From Plantactinospora soyae (GTDB lineage: Bacteria > Actinomycetota > Actinomycetes > Mycobacteriales > Micromonosporaceae): 64,000 nucleotides of DNA. The stretch's first letter is position 1, and each line of letters begins with the position of its first letter. The notes below the pieces were generated by a model. It was not told the origin of the DNA and did no database searches. It saw only the letters and a program-made list of their open reading frames with translations. Below are positions 29,209 through 29,572 of the stretch, piece after piece. The stretch lies in the NCBI RefSeq assembly GCF_014874095.1, contig NZ_JADBEB010000001.1, positions 4,402,001-4,466,000 on the forward strand, read 5' to 3'. Both the position numbers and the translations under genes were made by a program.

Positions 29209-29221
29209 AGGTGATGCCTTT

Positions 29222-29249
29222 CGGGAGGGCCTTTGGTGAGGCGCTCCCG
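29222..29249 (-). promoter_or_regulatory. hairpin between leader ORF and monooxygenase gene
   Basis: On the minus strand CGGGAGCGCC pairs with GGCCCTCCCG (one internal C-C mismatch) across an 8-base loop. It lies after the leader ORF stop and just before the AAAGG ribosome binding site of the monooxygenase gene. There is no U-tract, so it is more likely a translation- or RNA-folding switch than a simple terminator. Confidence 0.45.
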
Positions 29250-29256
29250 GCGACAC

Positions 29257-29316
29257 CTACGTCAATCGCCCGACCATGACGGTAAGGGGGAGCACCCACA
29301 TCGATACAGCGTTCAT
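29257..29316 (-). CDS. candidate 19-aa leader peptide upstream of monooxygenase gene
   Basis: A 19-codon ORF with ATG at 29316 and TAG at 29257-29259, reading MNAVSMWVLPLTVMVGRLT. It has the best ribosome binding site in this part of the window: AGGAGGTG with an 8-base spacing to the ATG. The stop is 48 bases before the monooxygenase ATG and the intervening RNA folds into a hairpin. Arrangement and strength of the translation signal suggest a regulatory leader, though the peptide sequence matches nothing I know. Confidence 0.5.
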   Translation of the reverse strand: MNAVSMWVLPLTVMVGRLT

Positions 29317-29330
29317 GGGTCTCACCTCCT

Positions 29331-29367
29331 CGGGCGTTGTCACGGTCAGCCGCAAGCTACAAGCCCG
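29331..29367 (-). promoter_or_regulatory. inverted repeat upstream of the leader ORF
   Basis: CGGGCGTTGT (29331-29340) and ACAAGCCCG (29359-29367) form an inverted repeat with one bulged base. On the minus strand the left part reads GGGCTTGTAGCTTGC. It lies 15-51 bases upstream of the leader ATG, where a promoter or operator is expected. Rifampicin-inactivation genes of actinomycetes are known to have a conserved rifampicin-associated element near their promoters; I cannot confirm that this is one. Confidence 0.35.
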
Positions 29368-29572
29368 ATCACCATCCCGTCCAGTCCTTTATCAGCTACC
29401 TGATCACGACTCCGAACGGGCCCGGGCGGCGGTGATGCTGATCGGCGCCCGGCCCGGTAGGACTCCACCGGGTCGGCCGCCGGTAGGTCGTACATACAAT
29501 GCGGCCGGCGCCTCGGGAGGTGGACCCGGGGCAGCCGTCCGGGGGCGGATCAGCTGTGGGAGGGGCCGGGTC

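Follow-up and report, generated by a model that had tools for sequence, protein, structure and literature searches.

Why would a gene for a rifampin monooxygenase-like enzyme stand behind an RNA laid out like an attenuator? We addressed this question in Plantactinospora soyae, within a 64-kb stretch of DNA (64,000 nucleotides, hereafter the window) in which a rox-like gene is preceded by a 146-nt leader that carries a strong Shine-Dalgarno sequence (SD), a 19-codon ORF and a hairpin over the rox SD. All features described below lie on the minus strand. The gene (27664–29208) encodes a FAD enzyme of 514 amino acids, which matches NF033145 with 828.6 bits, above the curated cut-off of 800, and shares 67.8% identity with 5vqb, a solved Rox chain. 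The leader SD, AGGAGGTG (29323–29330), present three times on the two strands of the window, is spaced 8 nt from AGGAGG to the ATG, or 6 nt counted from its final G. The leader ORF (29257–29316) encodes MNAVSMWVLPLTVMVGRLT and then stops; the rox SD, GAAAGG (29217–29222), lies inside the 3' arm of the hairpin at 29210–29257. An imperfect inverted repeat (29332–29366; arms GGGCTTGT at 29359–29366 and ACAACGCCC at 29332–29340) spans the -10 element of a predicted promoter, its upstream arm lying in this promoter, upstream of the predicted RNA start. Inverted repeat, SD, 19-codon ORF and hairpin are the parts that a first-pass annotation of this DNA had listed, and all of them were found. Folding of positions 29190–29370 yielded a z of -2.86, with 2 of 200 shuffles as stable. 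The leader is real and beyond chance. No Rfam 15 covariance model matched the window at its gathering threshold, and none matched positions 29100–29450 up to an E value of 1.

The leader and its promoter in front of rox genes

We examined the 112 rox loci nearest to the window protein (the best 80 of 585 plus the best 30 and 4 from two further searches, minus repeats), 108 of which are distinct in protein. For the leader call, L001 was left out, 24 of the 112 lacked the first motif, L077 and L103 were added and L105 was dropped, which gave 89 loci with the leader; 13 carry the core of the rifamycin-associated element (RAE), 7 have neither and 3 have lost the leader. A near-identical leader RNA precedes rox in Micromonosporaceae, Streptosporangiaceae, Streptomyces, Pseudonocardiaceae, Modestobacter and others. 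Leader identity is 0.892 versus 0.818 at 4-fold sites of rox, and is the higher of the two in 578 of the 616 usable pairs among 800 drawn. In the conservation check that the first-pass annotation had proposed, both hairpin arms and the short ORF proved to be widely kept across rox relatives. The three losses were judged by eye: in Janibacter (L105), the leader SD and start are fused straight to rox; in Asanoa (L067), the leader is gone and the promoter is retained; in Virgisporangium (L080), the 3' arm alone remains. At another locus (L154), the leader has ATA as its start and the rox reading frame downstream looks disrupted; this copy may be decaying.

Other rox genes have the RAE upstream, in the place that the leader occupies here; the RAE is a 19-bp palindrome overlapping the promoter, in the account that PMC10719064 gives of it. 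Its core, CTTGCGGCAAG, which we derived from the rox loci rather than from the original paper, is found within 600 nt upstream in the 13 of 112 rox loci mentioned above, all leaderless, and in none of 281 leader loci, the window included, over the 80 nt before the leader SD. The suggestion that the inverted repeat (29331–29367) might be such an element does not hold: the core is absent, and the repeat straddles the -10 of a WhiB7/WblC-like promoter. The window genome contains two exact matches to the RAE core (reversed-pattern controls, 7). An RAE-like palindrome at G000:C1:5827158 (L314:1501–1511) stands before a rifamycin phosphotransferase-like (rph-like) gene, whose match of 770.7 bits spans a partial 445 aa and stays below the cut-off of 999 set for the full length. 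With this RAE-like site and the rox leader in the same genome, RAE-type and leader-type control would coexist.

The promoter predicted upstream of the leader is of the WhiB7/WblC type. Under a relaxed pattern, it is made of an A-rich box, AAA (29388–29390), and a -35 element, TGGACG (29378–29383), together covering 29378–29390; the -10 element, TAGCTT (29354–29359), lies 18 bp past the -35. WblC-activated promoters follow GAAAWY-3-TKGMNN-16..19-TANNNT, with the RNA start 7–8 nt beyond, in the promoter description of PMC7157823; the window promoter, AAA-4-TGGACG-18-TAGCTT, is a partial match, and the 7–8 nt rule would place its RNA start at about 29346–29347. The relaxed pattern, which was picked after inspection of these very sequences, is present in 185 of the 281 leader loci, including the window (170 of 250 distinct ones), as compared with 0.04% of shuffles, while 10 of the 281 conform to the strict published consensus. 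One genome is counted under two identifiers among these 281 loci, which hold 250 distinct cores. None of 15 leaderless rox loci has the relaxed pattern, a comparison that does not amount to a test since the 15 were hand-chosen from 23, 13 of them for their RAE core. The window genome encodes a WhiB-family protein with an AT-hook motif (RGRP).

An RNA family in front of unrelated genes

Two covariance models were built, the first from 82 rox leaders and the second from 47 diverse members. The first found matches in 14 of 396 genomes of the phylum, where genes other than rox stand behind the same RNA. The second matched 184 of 246 Streptomyces genomes at an E value of 0.001; at 0.01, it had hits in 106 of 394 genomes from the class and in 83 of 249 from the order, the genome sets of all these surveys overlapping. 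A blastn search of a plasmid collection (E 0.01) revealed the leader on 44 records, a few of them chromosome-sized and 17 typed as mobilizable or conjugative; the matches overlap an annotated alpha/beta hydrolase in 16 records and rox in 5.

We then classified the next gene at 192 loci, parsed out of 200 (the top-scoring ones plus 100 hand-chosen), so that the proportions of the classes are not a census. Clustering gave 74 hydrolases, 68 rox, 27 GNAT, 10 patatin-like and 13 others (some in the wrong frame), and motifs gave 79, 69, 25, 8 and 11, respectively. The leader-borne hydrolase resembles the esterase 4ao6 (E 1.1e-33) and reaches the cut-off of no Pfam family, while the GNAT and patatin proteins exceed Pfam cut-offs. 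At 16 of the 192 loci (L180, L182, L185, L205, L206, L216, L239, L241, L242, L259, L272, L275, L277, L302, L308 and L312), the GNAT homolog behind the leader is followed by a gene for initiation factor IF-1; the GNAT homolog is full-length in 15 and reduced to its first half, which alone has no Pfam match, in L259. All 16 of these genomes have exactly two genes for IF-1, including the one at the leader locus, and the window genome has one. The second IF-1 forms a group of its own: in the 13 of 16 genomes compared, identity is 0.81 within it, 0.88 among housekeeping copies and 0.68 between the two. A Tsukamurella plasmid carries leader, GNAT homolog (first half only) and IF-1 in the same order.

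A few loci stand apart. Weak leader-like matches (E about 1e-3) at L269 and L291 precede mutually related proteins, which by their motif may be PrmC-type glutamine methyltransferases. At L202, the leader is followed by what appears by eye to be a histidine kinase gene fragment. One genome has two extra leaders about 17 kb apart (L270 and L271) beside its rox leader, and L271 looks degenerate.

The leader is not specific to rox. Hence, of the idea of an attenuation leader dedicated to a rifampicin enzyme, the attenuator-like layout stands and the dedication to rox does not, the same RNA also preceding hydrolase, GNAT/IF-1 and patatin genes. Taken together, its conservation and predicted pairings point to a real and widespread regulatory RNA family of the translation-attenuator kind. 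We found no description of it among the top matches listed in searches of open-licence PMC full texts, and the leader peptides, searched as text, had 0 matches there.

Alternative pairings and the leader ORF

Pairings were assessed on 82 rox leaders (the 89, minus four identical rows and the undelimited L032, L076 and L082) and on 47 leaders (32 hand-chosen from the 89, plus all 15 new loci). Conserved pairing delimits segment 1, GAGACCCATG (29314–29323, the leader start region), partner of segment 2; segment 2, GGGTGCTCCC (29288–29297, within the leader ORF), which can pair with 1 or 3; segment B, GTCATGGTC (29272–29280), partner of segment A; segment 3, GGTGTCGCCGGGAGCGCC (29240–29257), which can pair with 2 or 4; and segment 4, GGCCCTCCCGAAAGGCATCACC (29210–29231), which holds the rox SD. 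Segment A itself, GACCGTGAC (29339–29347), comes from folding as well as conserved pairing. The putative off state, A:B, 1:2 and 3:4, is paired in 94.3% of cells in the 82 rox leaders and in 89.5% in the 47 diverse ones. In the latter alignment, whose fitting to the off-state structure favours the count, 24 pairs have changed on both sides, versus 10.4 (sd 2.0) in shuffles, and 0 of 500 shuffles reach this number; slid versions of the structure give 7–12 such pairs, and 11 of the 24 fall in helix 5, which forms the base of 3:4. Covariation is weak in the independent alignment of rox leaders (7 double-changed pairs versus 4.1 in shuffles) because the 82 sequences are too alike, hence the need for the wider set. 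The alternative state, 2:3 with an inner hairpin, is paired in 99.6% of cells in the rox set and 96.0% in the diverse set, and 2:3, not 3:4, is the RNAalifold consensus on the rox set. This state contains few double changes, a scarcity to be expected if two partners constrain segment 3. As in translation attenuators, a short ORF with its own SD thus lies upstream of the gene, and the rox SD sits in a hairpin that has a competing alternative pairing. The likeness to attenuation-type leaders seen in the first-pass annotation is borne out by the conserved short ORF, the hairpin arms and these alternative pairings.

The leader ORF is kept in length and position. Homologous ORFs that begin with ATG or GTG stop at 14–19 codons in 264 of 265 cases, as compared with 8.5% of shuffles, these sequences being related and not independent. 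Between SD and start lie 6 nt in 246 of the 250 distinct elements, and segment 2 begins 19 nt past the A of the start codon, just outside the reach of a ribosome stationed there, in 194 of the 245 distinct elements where this segment was found. The frame is another matter: relative to the start, GGGTGCTC is in frame 1 in 216 of these 245 elements, in frame 0 in 19 and in frame 2 in 10. Rox and hydrolase leaders use frame 1, 15 of the 25 GNAT leaders use frame 0, and 7 of the 8 patatin leaders use frame 2. Since three reading frames run over one RNA, the peptide can change and is probably not the sensor, an argument that rests on the comparison between classes because the peptide is often alike within a class. 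An arrest peptide was considered and is disfavoured by these three frames, even though frame 1 dominates. The rox leaders have no excess of silent changes in the ORF; between start and segment 2, variation is 0.04 at the third codon position versus 0.08 and 0.09 at the first and second (77 of the 82 leaders). Finally, 9 of the 281 elements have ATT, ATC, ATA or GTT in place of ATG or GTG at the start position. In L260, L262, L263, L265, L268, L269, L289 and L291, the triplet is ATT, ATC or GTT; translation of such leaders would start inefficiently, and they might serve to sense the fidelity of initiation.

Proposed mode of action and significance

We put at about one in two the probability that these leaders, as a modular RNA family, act by translation attenuation through a ribosome held at the leader start codon. 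Transcription would begin at the WhiB7/WblC-type promoter, presumably switched on by a protein of that type. With no ribosome on the leader, A:B and 1:2 would form and 3:4 would sequester the rox SD, which keeps rox silent. Once stationed at the leader start, a ribosome would cover the leader SD and segment 1 and leave segments 2 and A uncovered; segment 2, freed, would pair with segment 3 during RNA synthesis, leaving segment 4 free and rox translated. A ribosome that moves on would cover segment 2 and return the RNA to the off state. The trigger would then be a ribosome arrested on the start codon or the first few codons, an effect that several ribosome drugs have, regardless of the peptide.

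We modelled ribosome-bound folding on 219 of the 281 elements (48 lacked a motif and the rest were identical). With the RNA cut off after segment 3, P(2:3) exceeds 0.5 in 155 of 219 elements with a ribosome at the start versus 7 without a ribosome; the count falls to 4 with the ribosome at codon 3 and to 0 at codons 5, 8 and 12, and is 80 on the last codon. The result depends on the ribosome's edge: in a subset of 80 of the 219, a 3' edge at +15 to +17 allows 2:3 at codons 1 and 2 in about two thirds and at codon 3 in at most 9%, while an edge at +13 or +14 lets about half of them form 2:3 at codon 3 as well. When the complete RNA is folded to equilibrium, 3:4 prevails nearly always: P(2:3) exceeds 0.5 in 6 of 219 elements with a start-codon ribosome, and the accessibility of the target SD is 0.53 with or without this ribosome. 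Modelled equilibrium folding of the complete RNA thus fails to support the switch, which implies that a start-codon switch must be kinetic, 2:3 being trapped co-transcriptionally.

The foremost competitor, a serious one though less probable in our judgement, is simple translational coupling: a ribosome that terminates on the leader's stop codon would open the lower part of hairpin 3:4 and uncover the rox start region. Rox output would then track leader translation, with no stalling sensor involved and 2:3 being secondary. Stop codons lie 9–16 nt before segment 3 in 247 of the 249 elements measured, across frames, and the fused Janibacter locus, where leader SD and start are joined directly to rox, fits such coupling. 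It is also favoured by the 80 of 219 elements that allow 2:3 with a last-codon ribosome, together with the opening of the region from SD to start, whose modelled accessibility in the complete RNA rises from 0.38 to 0.55. However, in the same model the SD itself does not open (0.48 versus 0.53), and coupling leaves unexplained both 2:3 as the best conserved pairing and the fixed spacing from start to segment 2. Rho-dependent or other premature termination, from which leader translation would protect the transcript, is unlikely: uORF-shaped Rho termination has been described in mycobacteria (a title cited in PMC13236596), but here the covarying stems centre on the target SD, which fits translation control, and positions 29000–29500 of the window contain 0 intrinsic terminators (stem followed by a T run), an absence that does not bear on Rho. 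That the leader senses rifamycin or RNA polymerase stress through uncoupling is very unlikely; a rox-like gene would suit such a sensor, but hydrolases, patatins and GNAT with IF-1 share the same RNA, and the RAE core is missing from the 80 nt before the SD at all 281 leader loci while an RAE-like site precedes the rph-like gene of the window genome. The occurrence of this leader before other enzymes and a spare IF-1 makes stalled ribosomes a likelier signal than rifampicin, and its gene neighbours point to ribosome stress. Still less probable is a ligand-binding riboswitch or protein-binding leader; segment 3 is very highly conserved, as such a binding site would be, but its two partners would account for this, and the hairpin loop varies while the SD, the start, the length of the ORF and its stop are conserved. 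A functionless leftover, which the three rox loci that lost the leader might suggest, is scarcely credible given the covariation and the higher identity of the leader compared with 4-fold sites of rox.

The attenuator with a start-codon-held ribosome recalls several known systems. ErmC-type attenuators set 1:2 and 3:4 against 2:3, place a hairpin over the target SD and depend on a stall at a specific peptide; pairing order and SD hairpin are the same here, but the peptide is read in three frames. The whiB7/wblC leader is an actinomycete uORF that responds to translation stress through transcription attenuation on a regulator gene; the uORF is shared, and a WhiB7-type promoter is likely at the rox leader too, which in contrast seems to be of the translation-attenuator kind. 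In Streptomyces coelicolor, lincosamides, streptogramin A and a pleuromutilin stall ribosomes at the start codon of leader ORFs, as reported in the part of PMC12421871 devoted to them. These are5sc and tiaA leaders share with the present one a short uORF and alternative RNA folds; stalling at the start codon and a link to the WblC regulon would be common to both if our model holds. They differ in their predicted terminator/anti-terminator folds and 3–9 residue peptides, where the window stretch at rox showed no terminator and the target SD is sequestered, and in that one RNA stands here before several unrelated genes; the word infA is absent from the main text of PMC12421871 and from that of one further paper. 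In Bacillus subtilis, a rifampicin alarm made of convergent promoters also controls rifamycin-resistance genes from their upstream region, but through the interplay of two promoters, according to PMC12802891, in whose main text the terms uORF and short ORF are absent.

How rox came by this leader is suggested by its own N-terminus. The alignment to 5vqb begins at residue 42, and residues 1–41 of the 514-aa Rox, which fall outside it, match, with 71% identity over 41 amino acids, the N-terminal ends of hydrolases encoded behind the leader (E 1.9e-13 among 61 such hydrolases). Because these residues lie outside the Rox alignment and are hydrolase-like, rox would have captured the promoter, the leader and about 41 codons (29086–29208) from an alpha/beta hydrolase gene. 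In a quick Rox tree, 54 of whose 105 forks are weak, the leader rows cluster (6 changes versus a shuffled mean of 21.1) and 12 of 13 RAE rows fall in a separate clade, L063 being the exception. Ten positions are fixed differently between the Rox clades.

We tentatively propose, as a reading that may well prove wrong, that the leader is a mobile RNA device that senses start-codon-arrested ribosomes independently of the peptide and drives a stress regulon of drug-modifying enzymes together with an inducible second IF-1. Rox would have received it by fusion, and the Rox clade concerned may have a ribosome-targeting natural product as its substrate or inducer. If this is true, one transferable RNA switch ties many uncharacterised actinomycete enzymes to ribosome stress and offers a sequence handle for hidden resistance enzymes; the role of a dedicated second IF-1 becomes a question; a peptide-independent leader could be used for tests of start-codon arrest in vivo; and a rifamycin-resistance-type gene would be under a sensor other than the RAE.
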